Shown one piece after another: positions 1 through 32,940 of a DNA stretch of 64,000 nt (its first letter is position 1; every line of letters starts with the position of its first letter). Under the pieces are notes generated by a model. It searched no databases. It was not told the DNA's origin and worked only from the letters and a program-made list of their open reading frames with translations. A program made the translations under genes and the position numbers. The stretch is taken from the NCBI RefSeq assembly GCF_021065005.1, contig NZ_CP069247.1, positions 310,001-374,000 on the forward strand, read 5' to 3'. The DNA comes from Candidatus Gromoviella agglomerans (GTDB lineage Bacteria > Pseudomonadota > Alphaproteobacteria > CAJXXZ01 > G021065005).

Positions 1-177
1 ACAAGCCCTTTATATACAGTAAACGAGAACCCATACCCTTGGATGGAACAGCTTCAAAATGAATTCGTGAATTTTTTTGAAAATCGCCCTTCAGAATACT
101 CAAAAGCATCAACAAAGGGAAATTGGACAGATGCATTTTCTTATTATGAAAAATATGCAGAAAATAATAAAATCTAA
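1..177 (+). CDS. nrdB: Ribonucleoside-diphosphate reductase beta subunit, C-terminal fragment
   Basis: The first frame is open from the window edge to a TAA at 175-177, giving 58 codons. The peptide contains ENPYPWM followed by FFENRPSEY and ends EKYAENNKI. The NPFPWM...FFETRVTEY pattern is typical of the extreme C-terminus of alphaproteobacterial class I NrdB, the di-iron radical subunit that activates NrdA for dNTP synthesis. The diiron ligands lie upstream of the window. Its partner nrdA is at 12617, about 12 kb away, so the usual nrdAB operon is broken. Partial only because the window starts here. Confidence 0.85.
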   Translation, partial: TSPLYTVNENPYPWMEQLQNEFVNFFENRPSEYSKASTKGNWTDAFSYYEKYAENNKI

Positions 178-188
178 CAATATGAAAT

Positions 189-222
189 CTTTTCAAATAT
201 ATATTCTTTTCAAATATATATT
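189..222. repeat. 17-bp perfect tandem duplication
   Basis: The 17-mer cttttcaaatatatatt occurs at 189-205 and again, directly abutting, at 206-222, in the nrdB-ruvC spacer. It looks like a slippage product in AT-rich DNA; no function is visible. Confidence 0.8.
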
Positions 223-347
223 ATATATAGCAAGTAATAGTAAATTATTAGCAAAAAAATTCATAATTTAAGAGGAAATTTTACAAAATCATTATTTTTT
301 GATATATCTTAATAGAATTTATCATGAAGGGCTATCTTAAATTCAAT

Positions 348-1358
348 ATGAGAATTATCGGAATAGATCCAGGAATAACAAAGACAGGATGGGGAGTGAT
401 ACAACTCCCTTCTCAGGATTTTTCCGACTCACGTTTCATACTTATGAATTTTATACTAATTAAAAATATTTTACTAAATCGCAATTGTATAGATTCAGAA
501 GTAAAAAAATCAATTTTGTTTAATAAAAAAATCAAAAACTCTAAAGAAAAAGAAAAAAATGCTGAAATCATAATTCTCACTCAAAAATTAATAGAACTTT
601 TCAGGGAAAATGATATATACGAAATGTGCATTCAATCATTCATCAGCAAAATTATCGATCTTGACGAGCACTTAATAAAATATTGCTCAATTCTCGACCA
701 AATAGATTCAATAATTTGCAAAAAATTTCAGCAAAATATGTTAATAGATAACAATAATAATGCTAAGGATTCACATAAGATAAACAATTTAATTGATATT
801 TGTCAAAAATATAGCTCACAAATGGATAGGAATGAACAATCCACTGAAGAAAATAGCAATAATAAATACAATGATAACGAACTCAAAAACTCCTCAGCAA
901 ATGACAATAATAAAGCAATCAACAACAAAAGAAATATATTAGTAAAAGATTTTCTACCTCAATACGTCTCTCACGGCATAATAAATACAAAATCAACTAC
1001 ATTGATGCACAAACGACTCGAATTAATATACACAGGCATATCAAAAGCAATTCAAGATTTCAATCCGCAAAGTGCAACTTTAGAGGAAGTATTCGTTAAT
1101 CAATCTAATCCAGCATCAACATTGAAATTAGGAAGCGCAAGAGGAGTTATATCTCTAGCAATTGCTCACAACAATATAGAAATCATGGAAATTCTAGCAG
1201 GAGACATAAAATATGCAATGTGCTTGAAATGGCGTGGAGAGAAGCAAGACATAAAAATGATAGTTTTTTCAATTTTGAACCTGCAAAATACAAGAGTTGC
1301 ACTGGATTCATCAGATAGTCTAGCAAGTGCAATTTGCTCAATTATGAAGATTAACTGA
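348..1358 (+). CDS. ruvC: Holliday junction resolvase RuvC with a large internal insertion
   Basis: RuvC is the endonuclease that resolves Holliday junctions with RuvAB. From the ATG at 348 the protein has 336 residues, about twice the usual 160-180. It starts MRIIGIDPG with the catalytic Asp at 7. The body resumes at about residue 206 (YVSHGIINTKST) and continues with LEEVFVNQSNPAS (Glu246), LGSARGV, and a C-terminal ALDSSDSLA supplying Asp320 and Asp323, so all four metal ligands are present. Residues about 20-205 (405-962) are extra: Lys/Asn/Ile-rich, with an Asn-rich stretch near 130-195, falling in the beta1-beta2 turn. An in-frame ATG at 324 is possible but adds eight residues not seen in the family. 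It follows nrdB on the same strand. Confidence 0.88.
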   Translation: MRIIGIDPGITKTGWGVIQLPSQDFSDSRFILMNFILIKNILLNRNCIDSEVKKSILFNKKIKNSKEKEKNAEIIILTQKLIELFRENDIYEMCIQSFISKIIDLDEHLIKYCSILDQIDSIICKKFQQNMLIDNNNNAKDSHKINNLIDICQKYSSQMDRNEQSTEENSNNKYNDNELKNSSANDNNKAINNKRNILVKDFLPQYVSHGIINTKSTTLMHKRLELIYTGISKAIQDFNPQSATLEEVFVNQSNPASTLKLGSARGVISLAIAHNNIEIMEILAGDIKYAMCLKWRGEKQDIKMIVFSILNLQNTRVALDSSDSLASAICSIMKIN

Positions 1359-1502
1359 AAGTTCAATTTGAGAAAATAAAGCAATATCACAAAAGCACAA
1401 CAGACTAGCTATTTGCTCAACAATCTAAACTACATCAAACACTATTAAAACAGGTCAAAAATTGATTTAATAAAACATTTTAATATCAAGAAATGAAACA
1501 AT

Positions 1503-2747
1503 TCATCGTTCAACTACAATTGGAATTGTATTGCCTTTTATTGATAACATCATTAGCAATTTCGAGGACTTATTATATATCTGATTCAGTTGCTCAATAG
1601 AATTAATAGACATAGAATTTACAGATATAACTCTAGGTATTCCTCCATTTTTGTAACATTTCAACACATTGTATATATTAGAACCAAGCTTCACAACATC
1701 ATACACATGACATAAAAACACTCCATGTTCGTTTTGACCAAAAACCATATCCCCTATTCTCTTAAATATTGCAATAGGCTTTTCTCTTGCATGAATATGA
1801 ACTTTAACATTGTATGATATAGTTTTTCCACTTTCGTTACATCTTAAGAAATGAACATCCACAAGATCTCCAGGTTTTTGAAATAGTATCACTTCAAATA
1901 AATCAGATTTTGACTTCATTTCTCTTTGATTTACCTCTAGAATCACGTCTCCAGGTAAAAAAACATCTGAGAATGAAGAAGAAACTTGAACTCCATGCTT
2001 CAAATTAAAAAATTTAAGAACATCAATGTCTGCTGTATCTACATCAATTTTCATCCAAGGCACGTCGCAATTACCTTCAGCCAAAACATGCTTCATAACA
2101 TACTGTAACAACCATACTGGTATAGAAAGAGTGGCTCCTTGTTCAAAATTTCCAAATACCATTCCAATCACTTCATTATCACGAATCAGAGGAGCCCCAG
2201 AACTTCCTGAAAATATTGGATTTGTACTCTTATATATAGCATAATCAACATCAGCACAGGAGCAAAATTGACTAGAAACAATGCCATCAGTTGTCGTCCA
2301 TTTTTCATCATGACAACTTATAGCATATACTGCATCATTAGGCATTAAGTGCACTTTTGAAAAATTCACAGGATTAAATTTCCGCCCCTTTATTTGAATA
2401 AGAGCAATATCTAAATACAAATCACAAAAAATCACTTCAGCTTTAAAAACACTTCCATCATATGTCTTGATCACTATATTAGGAGAAACAAATCCATCCA
2501 TAGATATAACGTGAGCGCATGTCATGATAATATTATCTTTAACAAAAAAACCAGAACCAAATATATGTAAAGATTTACTATTAAATAACAAATAATCGAG
2601 ATGAGGAAAGTAAACATCAATCCTAACTATTGACTTAATAATATCATTTGCACAACTAATTTCAGATTGACTATCTTGACATACTGTTTCAAAATTTCGA
2701 ACTGTAAAAAAAGTCAAAAAAAATATAAGAAATATGAGAAATCTCAT
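1503..2747 (-). CDS. HtrA/DegP-like periplasmic serine protease
   Basis: A 414-residue exported trypsin-fold protease of the S1C (HtrA/DegP) family, expected to degrade misfolded envelope proteins. It has an N-terminal hydrophobic signal segment (residues 2-15), then a catalytic triad in order: His79 in TCAHVI, Asp113 in DLYLDIALIQ, and Ser183 in FSGSSGAPL (the family form is GNSGGP). The region after about residue 235 has a PDZ-like segment (PGDVILEVNQREM) and a weaker second copy near the C-terminus. The sequence is divergent, so the DegP/DegQ/DegS type cannot be assigned. It converges with ruvC. Confidence 0.8.
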   Translation of the reverse strand: MRFLIFLIFFLTFFTVRNFETVCQDSQSEISCANDIIKSIVRIDVYFPHLDYLLFNSKSLHIFGSGFFVKDNIIMTCAHVISMDGFVSPNIVIKTYDGSVFKAEVIFCDLYLDIALIQIKGRKFNPVNFSKVHLMPNDAVYAISCHDEKWTTTDGIVSSQFCSCADVDYAIYKSTNPIFSGSSGAPLIRDNEVIGMVFGNFEQGATLSIPVWLLQYVMKHVLAEGNCDVPWMKIDVDTADIDVLKFFNLKHGVQVSSSFSDVFLPGDVILEVNQREMKSKSDLFEVILFQKPGDLVDVHFLRCNESGKTISYNVKVHIHAREKPIAIFKRIGDMVFGQNEHGVFLCHVYDVVKLGSNIYNVLKCYKNGGIPRVISVNSMSINSIEQLNQIYNKSSKLLMMLSIKGNTIPIVVER

Positions 2748-2919
2748 TTTTAATGTCAGAAAAACATCAGTAATTATACTCTTGAAGAGTAAATGTATAA
2801 ATATGATAAGACAATAGTTTTGCTAGCAACCCTTAATTACATTTCATCAACCAAAATTATCTTTACATAATTATGTTATCCTGCAATGATATTGCAATAT
2901 TTAATGCTCATATTATAAG

Positions 2920-4662
2920 GTGAATTTTATAAAGAACAAGAAAACAGAGAAAGTATTTGATCCATATCAAAATCCAAATGAATTTTATATGGTCCCTCTT
3001 GGAGGATGCAGCTCTCATGGCATAGGAATGAATTGCACAGTATATTTTTACAAAAATGCATCTATTATCGTCGATTTGGGAGTCACTTTTGAAAACACTC
3101 CAGGAATAGATCTAATAGTTCCAGATCCATCATTTATGGAAAATAAAATGGATAGATGCCTGGGAATTGTATTGACTCATGCGCACGAAGATCACTTAGG
3201 AGCGGTCCCATATTTATGGGAAAAATTAAAAAGACCAGACATATATGCCACTCCTTTTACAGCAGCAATCCTCAAAAATAAGTTCGATGGAATAATAGGA
3301 AAGAGATTTACTTCATCCTCTCTCAAGATAATTCAACACTCTGGTGAGTTTGAATTAGGACCATTTAAAATGCAATATATATCTATTACTCACTCAATTC
3401 CAGACTCAAATGCAATTGCAATTCGAACTGATATCGGGAATATAGTCCATACGGGAGACTGGAAATTAGATGAAACTCCAGTTGTAGGTGAAAAAACTGA
3501 TTACGAATTATTTAAAAAAATTGCAGATGAAGGAATATTAGCAGCAGTATGCGATTCAACAAACGTATTTAAGAATGAAATATCTGGTTCAGAAGAAGGA
3601 GTTGCAAGAGCGCTAGACAGAGAAATTGGATCGTGCAAGACTGGAATGTTAGCAGTTGTCTGCTTTGCATCAAATACTCACAGAATTGCTTCAATCATTC
3701 GTTCTGCAGTAAAATATGACAGAAAACCAGTCTTAGCTGGCAGATCGATAGAAGAAATAACCAGAATCGCAGCAGAGTGTGGATATTTGGAAGGAGAATT
3801 ATCAAATATAGTAGATTATAAAGAATCTACATCAATTCCACGCAACAAAATGCTTTTAATATGCACAGGAAGCCAAGGCGAAATAAGAGCGGCACTCCCA
3901 CGAATGGCACTTGGAACACATCCTAACTTTAGTTTGCAAAAAAATGATACGGTAATTTTTTCATCAAAAACAATACCTGGAAATGAAAAACAAACCGGTT
4001 ATATTCAAAATAAGTTGTGCCTTATGGGAGTAAATGTCATAAGTGCAGATTTCTGCAAAGATCTACATGTATCAGGCCATCCATCAGTTCCAGAATTGGA
4101 AACTTTATATAATCTACTCAAGCCTCAAATATGCATTCCTGTGCATGGAGAAGATCGGCATATCGCAAAACATGCACAAGTTGCTCAGAAATTAGGAATG
4201 AAGACTGTCACTCCACACAACGGAGATGTTATAAGAATCAACGAAAATGGAGCTGAAAAAGTAGCAAAAATCCGCGCTGGATGTTTATTTAAAGATGGTA
4301 GAGATCTAATAAGCAAAGACAGTACAATAATGACTGAGAGACTCAGAATGATGGGTAATGGAGCAATTCATATATCTGCTATCATAAACTCAAACATGAA
4401 TCTTATCGATCTAGCAATATCAACAAGCGGATTAAGAGAAAAATGGCACAGAATAAACGAAGAAATAAGATCATGCGCAAAATACGCAGTATCAGACCTT
4501 TCAGGTAAAATTCAACACCCTCATAAAAGCAATAAAAATGATGTCCCTGTTGAAGAAGCTAGAATAAAAGAAGAGATTTTCGTAAAAGTCAGCAGTTTAA
4601 TCAAGCATAGAATTGATAAATCACCTCTGATATCAATACATGTACATTCAATATCTAGATAA
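2920..4662 (+). CDS. rnj: Ribonuclease J
   Basis: A metallo-beta-lactamase/beta-CASP nuclease of 580 residues, the usual RNase J length, acting as 5'-3' exo- and endoribonuclease in mRNA decay and rRNA maturation. The N-terminal PLGGCSSHGIGMN corresponds to the family PLGGxxEIGxN. The zinc motif THAHEDHLGA is at residues 86-95; a second ligand cluster is HTGDWKLDETP. The beta-CASP part contains ICTGSQGE and VSGHPS, followed by IPVHGE. The start used is GTG at 2920, because the upstream ATG at 2904 runs into a stop; an internal ATG giving MVPLGG is the alternative. Confidence 0.93.
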   Translation: MNFIKNKKTEKVFDPYQNPNEFYMVPLGGCSSHGIGMNCTVYFYKNASIIVDLGVTFENTPGIDLIVPDPSFMENKMDRCLGIVLTHAHEDHLGAVPYLWEKLKRPDIYATPFTAAILKNKFDGIIGKRFTSSSLKIIQHSGEFELGPFKMQYISITHSIPDSNAIAIRTDIGNIVHTGDWKLDETPVVGEKTDYELFKKIADEGILAAVCDSTNVFKNEISGSEEGVARALDREIGSCKTGMLAVVCFASNTHRIASIIRSAVKYDRKPVLAGRSIEEITRIAAECGYLEGELSNIVDYKESTSIPRNKMLLICTGSQGEIRAALPRMALGTHPNFSLQKNDTVIFSSKTIPGNEKQTGYIQNKLCLMGVNVISADFCKDLHVSGHPSVPELETLYNLLKPQICIPVHGEDRHIAKHAQVAQKLGMKTVTPHNGDVIRINENGAEKVAKIRAGCLFKDGRDLISKDSTIMTERLRMMGNGAIHISAIINSNMNLIDLAISTSGLREKWHRINEEIRSCAKYAVSDLSGKIQHPHKSNKNDVPVEEARIKEEIFVKVSSLIKHRIDKSPLISIHVHSISR

Positions 4663-12616: not shown

Positions 12617-14512
12617 ATGAGCTTTTCTAAGTTTGTTGTAAATAAAAGCAGAGACGATCTCCTAACAGATTTTGCAAAAAAAACAATGCGAGATAGGTAT
12701 TTGCTCCCTGATGAGTCTTATCAAGACACATTTGCACGCATATCTATAGCCTACGCGGATGATGCTCAGCACGCAAGCAGAATGTATGAATACATATCCA
12801 AATTGTGGTTTTTACCAGCAACTCCAATAATCAGCAATGGCGGTACTTCTGATTACACCAGATGGAAATTAGAAAATAACTTATCATATAATGTCAACGC
12901 ACTAAAAAAAGAACGTGGATTACCTATATCTTGCTTCTTAAACCAAGCTGATGACAATCTCAAGAGCATATCTAATCTTTGGCAAGAAAACATTTGGCTA
13001 GCATCAAAAGGTGGAGGAATTGGAAGTTATTATGGAGAGATTCGATCTGTTGGAGAAAAAATCTCCACAGGAGGAGTCGCATCCGGAATTATGCCATACA
13101 TAAAAGTTGTCGATAGCATGACACTTGCAGTATCGCAAAGCTCTCTTCGAAGAGGTGCTACAGCTGTATACATACCAGTTGATCATCCAGAAATAGAGGA
13201 ATTCATATCTCTGAGAAAACCAACTGGCGGAGACTACAACCGTAGAGCTTTAAACATTCACCACGGTGTTTGCATTACAGATTCTTTTATGAAAGCTGTC
13301 GAAAATAATGAGAAATGGCAGCTAATTAGCCCAAAAACTCATCAAGTAATTCGAGAAATATCTGCAAGAGATTTAATGATCAGAATAATATCAGCTCGCA
13401 TAGAAACAGGAGAACCATACCTATTATTTACAGATACAGTTAATAGATCAATTCCAGAAATTCAGAAAATCCTTAAATTAAATGTGAAAACATCAAATTT
13501 ATGTAGCGAAATCACTCTCCCTACAGGGATTGACCATCTAGGTAATGAAAGAACAGCAGTTTGTTGCCTCGGATCTGTCAATCTAACTTTTTTTGAAGAT
13601 TGGGTAAATAAAGAGTTATTTATAGAAGATTGTATAAGATACTTGGACAACGTACTTGAAGACTTCATACACTCAGCAACTGACGATATATCAAAAGCAC
13701 GATACTCTGCAATGAGAGAGAGATCAATTGGATTGGGGATAATGGGACTGCATGATTTTTTTCAATCAAAAATGCTTCCTTTTGATAGTGCTTTGGCAAG
13801 AGGCTGGAATAGTAAGATATTTAAGCATATCGGAGAGAAAAGTACTAAAGCATCTCAAAAACTCGCGAAAGAAAAAGGAGTTTGTCCAGACGCAAAAGAC
13901 GCTATAGAGATTGCTAAAAAACAAGGCTTCAGTGAAGAATATATTCAATCCATTAGCATAAGATGTAGTAATGTAACTGCAATTGCTCCAACTGCATCCA
14001 TATCGATAATCGCAAACACATCACCAGGAATAGATCCAATTGTGAGCAATGCTTATACTCATAAAACACTTAGCGGATCATTTATAGTAAAAAATAAAAA
14101 TCTTGAAAATTTGTTGATAGACAAAGGTATAAACAATGAAGAAATATGGAATATGATCATTCGATCAGAAGGATCAGTACAAAATCTTAAACACCTCAGC
14201 GATCACGAAAAAAAAGTTTTCAGAACTGCATTTGAAATAAATCAGATAGCTCTTATAAATCAAGCTGCTGATAGACAGAAATACATATCTCAAGCACAAT
14301 CTCTGAATATTTTCTTTTTAAGTAACGCAAATAAATTAGACTTGTTGATGACTCATATGCTCGCATGGAAATCTGGTATAAAAAGTCTTTATTATCTAAG
14401 ATCCCAATCTATTCAAAGAGTAGAAAATGCAGATACAGCAGAAGCAATTCTGAGGTCTCATTCTCAAATAGATCTTCCACTTCAGTACGAAGAGTGCGAA
14501 TCATGTCAGTAA
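12617..14512 (+). CDS. nrdA: Ribonucleoside-diphosphate reductase alpha subunit
   Basis: The catalytic subunit of class I ribonucleotide reductase, 631 residues. No N-terminal ATP-cone is visible: the sequence goes directly to WFLPATPIISNGGT. Active-site residues are Cys106 in LPISCFL and Cys316 in AVCCLG (redox pair), Asn294/Cys296/Glu298 in SNLCSE (radical Cys), and the Tyr pair in SLYYLRSQ for radical transfer. The C-terminal ECESCQ provides the CxxC that is re-reduced by thioredoxin. Absence of the ATP-cone would mean no dATP activity control at that site. The beta subunit gene lies at the window's left edge, not next door. Confidence 0.95.
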   Translation: MSFSKFVVNKSRDDLLTDFAKKTMRDRYLLPDESYQDTFARISIAYADDAQHASRMYEYISKLWFLPATPIISNGGTSDYTRWKLENNLSYNVNALKKERGLPISCFLNQADDNLKSISNLWQENIWLASKGGGIGSYYGEIRSVGEKISTGGVASGIMPYIKVVDSMTLAVSQSSLRRGATAVYIPVDHPEIEEFISLRKPTGGDYNRRALNIHHGVCITDSFMKAVENNEKWQLISPKTHQVIREISARDLMIRIISARIETGEPYLLFTDTVNRSIPEIQKILKLNVKTSNLCSEITLPTGIDHLGNERTAVCCLGSVNLTFFEDWVNKELFIEDCIRYLDNVLEDFIHSATDDISKARYSAMRERSIGLGIMGLHDFFQSKMLPFDSALARGWNSKIFKHIGEKSTKASQKLAKEKGVCPDAKDAIEIAKKQGFSEEYIQSISIRCSNVTAIAPTASISIIANTSPGIDPIVSNAYTHKTLSGSFIVKNKNLENLLIDKGINNEEIWNMIIRSEGSVQNLKHLSDHEKKVFRTAFEINQIALINQAADRQKYISQAQSLNIFFLSNANKLDLLMTHMLAWKSGIKSLYYLRSQSIQRVENADTAEAILRSHSQIDLPLQYEECESCQ

Positions 14513-30882: not shown

Positions 30883-32940
30883 ATGATCACTTTGCAAGTG
30901 TTATTTCAAGACATTTCTCATTGCAAAAATGTTGGGCCAAAAAAATTACCATTGATGAAAAGAATAGGTATTCATACAATATTAGACCTATTATTCTTTC
31001 AGCCAATAAGAATATTCGAATTTCCACTAATGCAAAGTCAAGATTTCAAATTCATAAGCAAATCAAAGGAATGTGCAAGCATTCGAGTGTGCAATATCAA
31101 AATCAACAGAAGTACTAGCGTCAATAAAAAACACTTCATTCTTCGAGGAAAAATTGCTGATGATATTGAGCATGATCATCCATGCCAAACATTAAATCAC
31201 ATAGATATCGAAATGGTATTTTTTCACATAAATTCAGTGCGCTCTATCACATCATCTTTTGGGATTGTGAGCGGAAAGTACGAAAAAACAATCACAAATC
31301 AAAGAGTTTTACTAAAATTCATACATCCAACTTTTTCAAGAGTAGAAACAAATCAAAGAATATCTCAGTACTCTCTTCCTTACGGTTTAACATCAAATGA
31401 CATAGTAAAATTTATAAAATCAATAGACATTCCAGAGATCGATGAATGGATTCCACTCAAAATAGTAGAAAGATTTAATTTTCCAACATGGAAAGAAGCA
31501 ATCTTGAACCTACATTTCTCAAAAAATGATGAACAATACAAATTAGCAATAAATCGTCTTGCTTTTGATGAGCTGTTATTTCACTACCTACACAATCAAA
31601 CAACAACACAAAAGTGCAGAATTTATAGTCCAAATGAATCCATTCGACAGGAATTTTTGCAAAATTACGGAATAAAAGAGCTTACACCTTCACAGCGGAA
31701 TGCACTACATACAATCGACAAAGATTTAGCAAATAATCTAATTACATACAGAGTACTTCACGGAGATGTAGGTAGTGGAAAAACAATAATCGCCTTTCTA
31801 TCAATATTAAGTTTTGCTGAACATGATGTTCAAATTGCATTTATCTGTCCAACTGAAATTTTAGCCAGACAGCACTACGAAAATTTCATAAAAACGATAC
31901 AGAAAATGACTTTAATAAAGATTACAACTACCCTTCTAACAGGATCGATGAAAGAAAAGGAAAAGACAAAAATCAGAGAAGGAATATTTAGCAACCAAAT
32001 TCAAGTAATATTTGGAACTCACTCGCTTTTCTCAAATAAAATTAAATTTCATAATCTTGAATACGTAATCATCGATGAATTGCACAAATTTGGAGTATCT
32101 CAACGAAATGCTATTTACGAAAAAGGCATAAACAAGCAAGTCAACATGCTAATAATGAGCGCGACTCCAATCCCTCGAACTCTCGAGCATACTTTATCTG
32201 GATTTATCAATTTGTCAAAAATCGAACAAAAACTCCCAGATCGATTTGAAATAAAAACATATATCATTCATAAAAACAAAGAGGAGAGTCTCTTAAATCA
32301 CATATTCGACAAAATAAAAAATGAAGAATGCGGTTATTGGGTATGCCCATCAATAAAGGAAAACGAAGAGATGAGCTCAATAGAAAGCAGAATAGAAATA
32401 TTTAAAAGAAGTAAACAAATCGACATATCTTGTATATCAATACTACACAGCGAGATTCCAGAAGATGAAAAAAATTCTATAATGCAAAAATTCAAAGAAG
32501 GCGATAAGAAATTAATTTTATGCACAACAGTAATCGAAACTGGAATCGATATTCCAAATGCAACATTCATAGTTGTAGAAAATGCAGAGAGGTTTGGATT
32601 ATCACAATTGCACCAACTCAGAGGCAGAGTCGGCAGAAATGACAAGCAATCTGTATGTTTTTTACTATGCAACGCTTTTGGTCAAAAAATCAAAGAAAGA
32701 CTGAACATAATGCGAGAAACTAATGATGGATTTGTAATTGCAACTAAAGACCTTGAACTAAGAGGTGCGGGCGAATTTTATGGAACAGCACAAAGTGGAG
32801 AATTCAAAATATTCAATTTTGCTGATTTAGATAGACATTCAGAGTTATCAAGAGAAGCTAAAGAAACAGTAGAATCATATGATGATCAACAATTCATATC
32901 ATTGCAGAAATTTATGAACCAAATAACATATCAAATCTAG
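30883..32940 (+). CDS. recG: ATP-dependent DNA helicase RecG
   Basis: A 685-residue superfamily 2 helicase that remodels stalled forks and branched DNA. The N-terminal wedge/OB domain is followed by Walker A HGDVGSGKT, a DELHKFGVSQR box (family DEQHRFGV), MSATPIPRTL, and LHQLRGRVGRND. The protein is of normal length. The Q of the DEQH box is L here, a minor variation. It stands alone with spacers on both sides. Confidence 0.96.
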   Translation: MITLQVLFQDISHCKNVGPKKLPLMKRIGIHTILDLLFFQPIRIFEFPLMQSQDFKFISKSKECASIRVCNIKINRSTSVNKKHFILRGKIADDIEHDHPCQTLNHIDIEMVFFHINSVRSITSSFGIVSGKYEKTITNQRVLLKFIHPTFSRVETNQRISQYSLPYGLTSNDIVKFIKSIDIPEIDEWIPLKIVERFNFPTWKEAILNLHFSKNDEQYKLAINRLAFDELLFHYLHNQTTTQKCRIYSPNESIRQEFLQNYGIKELTPSQRNALHTIDKDLANNLITYRVLHGDVGSGKTIIAFLSILSFAEHDVQIAFICPTEILARQHYENFIKTIQKMTLIKITTTLLTGSMKEKEKTKIREGIFSNQIQVIFGTHSLFSNKIKFHNLEYVIIDELHKFGVSQRNAIYEKGINKQVNMLIMSATPIPRTLEHTLSGFINLSKIEQKLPDRFEIKTYIIHKNKEESLLNHIFDKIKNEECGYWVCPSIKENEEMSSIESRIEIFKRSKQIDISCISILHSEIPEDEKNSIMQKFKEGDKKLILCTTVIETGIDIPNATFIVVENAERFGLSQLHQLRGRVGRNDKQSVCFLLCNAFGQKIKERLNIMRETNDGFVIATKDLELRGAGEFYGTAQSGEFKIFNFADLDRHSELSREAKETVESYDDQQFISLQKFMNQITYQI

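Follow-up and report, generated by a model that had tools for sequence, protein, structure and literature searches.

RuvC is generally treated as the nuclease of the RuvABC machine, a dimeric enzyme that makes metal-dependent, symmetric cuts in Holliday junctions. Its architecture comprises a five-stranded sheet and a dimer interface to which helices A and B contribute, and the roles of its DNA-contact residues have been described (PMC3834835). The RuvC of phage bIL67 restores UV resistance to ruvABC-deleted E. coli, and so works without RuvAB; it differs from E. coli RuvC in its loop lengths and shows a relaxed branch specificity (PMC3864405). In Wolbachia, ruvA has been neutralised and recG kept, with both ruvB and ruvC under purifying selection (PMC4224334). 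A survey of 117 genomes found RuvAB to be absent from only two RecA-bearing genomes, both of which have RecG (PMC1193525).

In this study, we analysed a stretch of 64,000 nucleotides, referred to here as the window, from 'Candidatus Gromoviella agglomerans', a Paramecium symbiont with a genome of 590 kbp (PMC11909080). The assembly is a single contig of 589,967 bases. The window encodes a RuvC whose conserved core is interrupted by a long insert, in a genome where neither RuvA nor RuvB was detected.

The ruvC gene and its conserved core

The gene occupies positions 348..1358 of the plus strand and encodes 336 amino acids from the ATG at 348, which stands directly before the usual start of the RuvC family, MRIIGIDPG; an alternative ATG at 324 would give 344 amino acids. 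A frameshift, which the earlier note had listed among the findings that could undo its observation, was looked for, and the reading frame is continuous from 324 to 1358 on the plus strand, with 344 codons free of stops and frameshifts. Upstream, between a ribonucleotide-reductase small-subunit-like gene and ruvC, a 17-base unit (TCTTTTCAAATATATAT) is repeated 2.1 times without mismatch at window positions 188-222.

The core of the protein is encoded in two pieces on the plus strand. The N-terminal part (348..404) comprises strand β1, with the catalytic D7 (codon 366-368), and strand β2 (TGWGVIQ), and the remainder (960..1355) runs from β3 onward and holds E246 (1083-1085), D320 (1305-1307), and D323 (1314-1316). 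The Pfam RuvC model (PF02075) matches the open reading frame in two stretches split at the insert (E 2.1e-29), and its score of 102.7 bits against a curated cut-off of 22.2 places the protein in the family. The NCBIfam RuvC models match it below their stricter equivalog cut-offs, and its family score falls within the range of the scores of its relatives. Likewise, a profile HMM built from five alphaproteobacterial RuvCs aligns with residues 1-22 and 205-331. In an alignment of 46 RuvCs, D7, E246, and D323 stand in invariant columns and D320 in a nearly invariant one, as had been claimed in the earlier note, which described the four catalytic acids and both flanks as intact. In the same alignment R223, F249, K260, K288, and K299 also occupy invariant columns, at positions for which DNA-contact roles are known (PMC3834835). 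The AlphaFold model of the core has pLDDT values mostly of 90-98, and a Foldseek search with the model placed RuvC crystal structures at ranks 1-12 (E 1e-10 to 4e-8), so that the predicted core has the RNase-H-like fold. A whole-protein search of the genome contigs with the window RuvC returned no relative; a second scan of these contigs returned ordinary alphaproteobacterial RuvCs.

Place, composition, and predicted fold of the insert

The insert (405..959, plus strand; residues 20-204), for which no homologue was detected, follows β2 directly. As the strands of the AlphaFold model span residues 2-7, 12-19, and 205-213, it lies in the turn between β2 and β3. The earlier note had described an extra domain of about 175 residues between the first two β strands; the extra stretch is indeed there, but its place is one strand further on and, as described below, structure prediction gives no confident fold that would make it a domain. 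Measured as the number of residues between fixed alignment columns, the hairpin loop is 188 residues long in the window RuvC, compared with 5-9, and nearly always 9, in 117 other alphaproteobacterial RuvCs drawn from a class sample, from the order, and from the genome-contig scan; for the search of 240 genomes, all of one class, the loop lengths are those among the top matches listed. The net gain is about 180 residues. The family profile also skips from residue 22 to 205, and the claim that residues of about 20-205 lack a counterpart in the family holds. In a survey of 60 genomes of one class, the profile match started late only in the window genome and in one member of its order, G001, apart from contig ends, fragments, and second weak matches; the RuvC match of G042, for example, is shortened at a contig end.

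The composition of the insert is far from that of the conserved genes in the window. It has no glycine in 186 residues, no tryptophan, 15% asparagine, and a net charge of 0, and its GC2 is 0.19 compared with 0.33 in those genes. The first part (405..737, plus strand; residues 20-130) is 44% hydrophobic over its 111 residues, which is more than is usual for disordered sequence, and is predicted, with low confidence, to be helical. The second part (738..959, plus strand; residues 131-204) is rich in asparagine, 24% hydrophobic, of low hydropathy, and disorder-like. Sequences drawn from a first-order Markov model with the composition of the insert contain about 14 stops per 186 codons, and none of 2000 trials was free of stops. 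The coding score of the insert's frame (-0.03) is the best of the six and just above that of every intergenic window (maximum -0.04), but low within the range of the window genes (minimum -0.15, mean 0.14). This is a weak sign of coding, and would fit a sequence that is under little constraint although it is translated.

In the full AlphaFold model, the helices of the insert have block-mean pLDDT values of about 35-69, and when the insert is modelled alone, without an alignment, the pLDDT is below 50 throughout. With an orphan sequence, low confidence from AlphaFold is to be expected whether or not the sequence folds. An amphipathic helix was considered and rejected, as the amphipathicity of the insert was no better than that of shuffled sequences (p 0.20 and 0.13). 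A basic DNA-binding tail does not agree with the net charge of 0. Origin by duplication or slippage was also rejected: the best internal repeat was equalled in 15 of 60 shuffles, and the adjacency of asparagines gave p 0.08.

The insert was searched against protein profiles and related symbionts, as the earlier note had proposed, and no match was found in Pfam, NCBIfam, PHROGs, viral contigs, phages, or plasmids, nor in any of its seven relatives in the order; its own genome holds no second copy. Pfam gave nothing up to E 1, Hint and intein models included, Rfam gave no match in window positions 1-3000, and a PDB search with the insert returned matches at chance level (best E 0.061). The idea of a captured module, which the earlier note had offered, thus finds no homologue in any collection searched and no confident fold, and the insert is not supported as a known inserted domain. 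Specifically, phage, plasmid, and viral collections gave no match to a captured module, and an intein or intron is at odds with the lack of Pfam and Rfam matches and with the open frame. A general expansion of proteins was not seen among the conserved window proteins that match full-length NCBIfam models, which gain at most about 36 residues. The largest gain among the other conserved proteins checked is that of the NrdA-like protein (12617-14512), which between its ends exceeds its best NCBIfam model by about 36 residues. Among the papers searched, we found no report of RuvC inserts, or of RuvB, in the Holosporales, and an earlier mention of an enlarged RuvC is possible.

RuvC without RuvAB in the order

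In the window genome RuvA_N and RuvB_C have no match and RuvB_N has only matches below its cut-off; a RuvABC resolvasome, with RuvA and RuvB encoded alongside RuvC, was therefore not found. RuvC and RecA are present in all eight genomes of the order, whereas RuvA and RuvB went undetected in seven of them, with G003 alone having both; several of the eight assemblies are in incomplete draft form, but the window genome, G002, G004, and G007 are single contigs. Outside the order, two of the 47 RuvC-positive genomes in the 60-genome sample lack a RuvB_C match, and both (G050 and G052) are drafts. A small group of symbionts that keeps RuvC and RecA, with RuvAB mostly undetected, allows RuvC without RuvAB to be studied as an evolved state.

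RecG, PriA, AddA, and LigA are all encoded in the window. The RecG helicase (30883..32940, plus strand; 685 amino acids) is matched best by model NF008168 (7.7e-159), below the NCBI equivalog cut-offs, and is likely to be the branch-migration partner of RuvC in place of RuvAB. The erosion of RuvA in Wolbachia with RecG kept, together with the rescue of a ruvABC deletion by a phage RuvC, makes a RuvC that acts without RuvAB plausible. The loss of RuvA and RuvB, which the earlier note did not see, is the more informative context for the insert.

The hairpin loop is of normal length in six of the seven order relatives, with 8-9 residues in G002, G004, G006, and G007 and similarly short loops in G003 and G005. 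The seventh, G001, which belongs to another family, has a loop of 9 by alignment, but its RuvC (ORF L032) carries about 25 extra residues nearby where the profile match breaks (ORF residues of about 66-100, against profile positions 28 to 37), and whether these sit in the same hairpin is ambiguous. A RecA tree of the order did not resolve a grouping of G001 with the window genome. By these sequence comparisons with seven relatives, all from other genera and families than the window genome, the insert is lineage-specific. Normal RuvCs in related genomes, which the earlier note would have counted against its observation, are indeed what most relatives have; the observation itself stands, and the short loops speak instead against a conserved function of the insert.

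Explanations of the insert and known systems

Taken together, sequence and predicted structure make it reasonably probable that the window encodes a catalytically competent RuvC which, in the absence of RuvAB, relies on RecG for branch migration and has tolerated a near-neutral insertion of about 180 residues between β2 and β3. The insertion would have been acquired in the β2-β3 turn within this lineage, the enzyme would still cut junctions as a dimer, and RecG would supply branch migration instead of RuvAB. In the known RuvC/RNase H fold, this turn should lie at the opposite end of the sheet from the active site, clear of the helices that form the dimer. Therefore, a loose extension at the sheet edge, mostly helical or disordered, could be carried there without blocking cutting. 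The loss of RuvAB may have lifted a packing constraint on the outer surface of RuvC, and may thus have been permissive. However, it would not be a sufficient cause, as four relatives without RuvAB (G002, G004, G006, and G007) have a normal loop. The lineage restriction, the lack of homologues, and the lack of a confident fold all favour a tolerated insertion, and of the possibilities named in the earlier note, a tolerated insertion or expanded linker is the one that fits these data best. The insert is probably near-neutral, and neutral growth, non-coding DNA, and host-derived sequence are candidate origins.

A less likely reading is that the insert works as an accessory domain in place of something that RuvAB supplied, for example by binding RecG, SSB, or the junction and recruiting RuvC. 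The apparent absence of RuvA and RuvB, the hydrophobic and helix-predicted first part, and a possible smaller expansion near the same site in G001, which also lacks RuvAB, would agree with such a role. However, RuvAB-less G002, G004, G006, and G007 keep a loop of 8-9 residues, and since most RuvAB-less relatives have a short loop, the insert is not required as a substitute for RuvAB. Moreover, it has neither homology nor a confident fold, and its net charge provides no basic DNA-binding surface overall. The stable presence of the insert in an otherwise compact genome may also seem to point to a function, and the earlier note had reasoned that a reduced genome should keep no useless coding sequence. 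This argument is weak, because any stop or frameshift within the insert would cost RuvC its downstream half. With the later catalytic core lying downstream, the frame is protected even in the case of an insert without function, and persistence in a reduced genome is consequently not evidence of use. That the insert has arisen as a new accessory domain of a RuvAB-free RuvC, docking for instance on RecG or the junction in a RuvC-RecG pathway, seems quite unlikely. If the insert is functional, it would offer a lead on how junctions are resolved without the RuvAB motor.

We regard it as similarly improbable that ruvC is heading for pseudogene status, with the insert as a sign that selection on a redundant resolvase has relaxed. 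RuvAB is already lost, the composition of the insert is unlike that of the window genes, and the neutralised ruvA of Wolbachia is a precedent in an endosymbiont (PMC4224334). However, every catalytic and DNA-contact residue is intact, the 344 codons are uninterrupted, all eight order genomes have a RuvC, and the family score is within the range of the relatives. Finally, removal of the insert after transcription or translation, as an intron or intein, or an assembly error has nothing in its favour beyond the abruptness of the insert, and is very unlikely given the lack of Rfam and of Pfam intein or Hint matches, the stop-free frame where about 14 stops would be expected, the lack of another copy in the genome, and the single-contig assembly.

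In Cas9, Cas12, and TnpB, the RNase-H-like RuvC fold also accommodates large sequences, which separate its early strands from the catalytic residues that come later. However, those insertions follow β3 and form folded recognition lobes, whereas the insert described here lies between β2 and β3 and has no confident fold. The weak Foldseek matches of the window RuvC to Cas12 have rmsd values above 20 Å and give no evidence of kinship. In genome context, there is a resemblance to Wolbachia, likewise an alphaproteobacterial endosymbiont in which RuvAB has eroded and RecG is kept, but there only ruvA is neutralised, while in the window genome RuvA and RuvB are both undetected and RuvC is enlarged. 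The phage bIL67 enzyme belongs to the RuvC family as the window RuvC does, but carries its extra residues in the β1/β2 loop and in the loop at the start of αD instead. With canonical RuvC from E. coli (1HJR), P. aeruginosa (6LW3), and T. thermophilus (4LD0 and 6S16), the window RuvC shares the family, the four catalytic acids, the F/K/R DNA-contact positions, and the predicted core fold, and differs in its roughly 180 additional β2-β3 residues and in a genome without RuvA and RuvB. It also gives a measure of the orphan sequence that a core repair enzyme is able to bear at the edge of its sheet.
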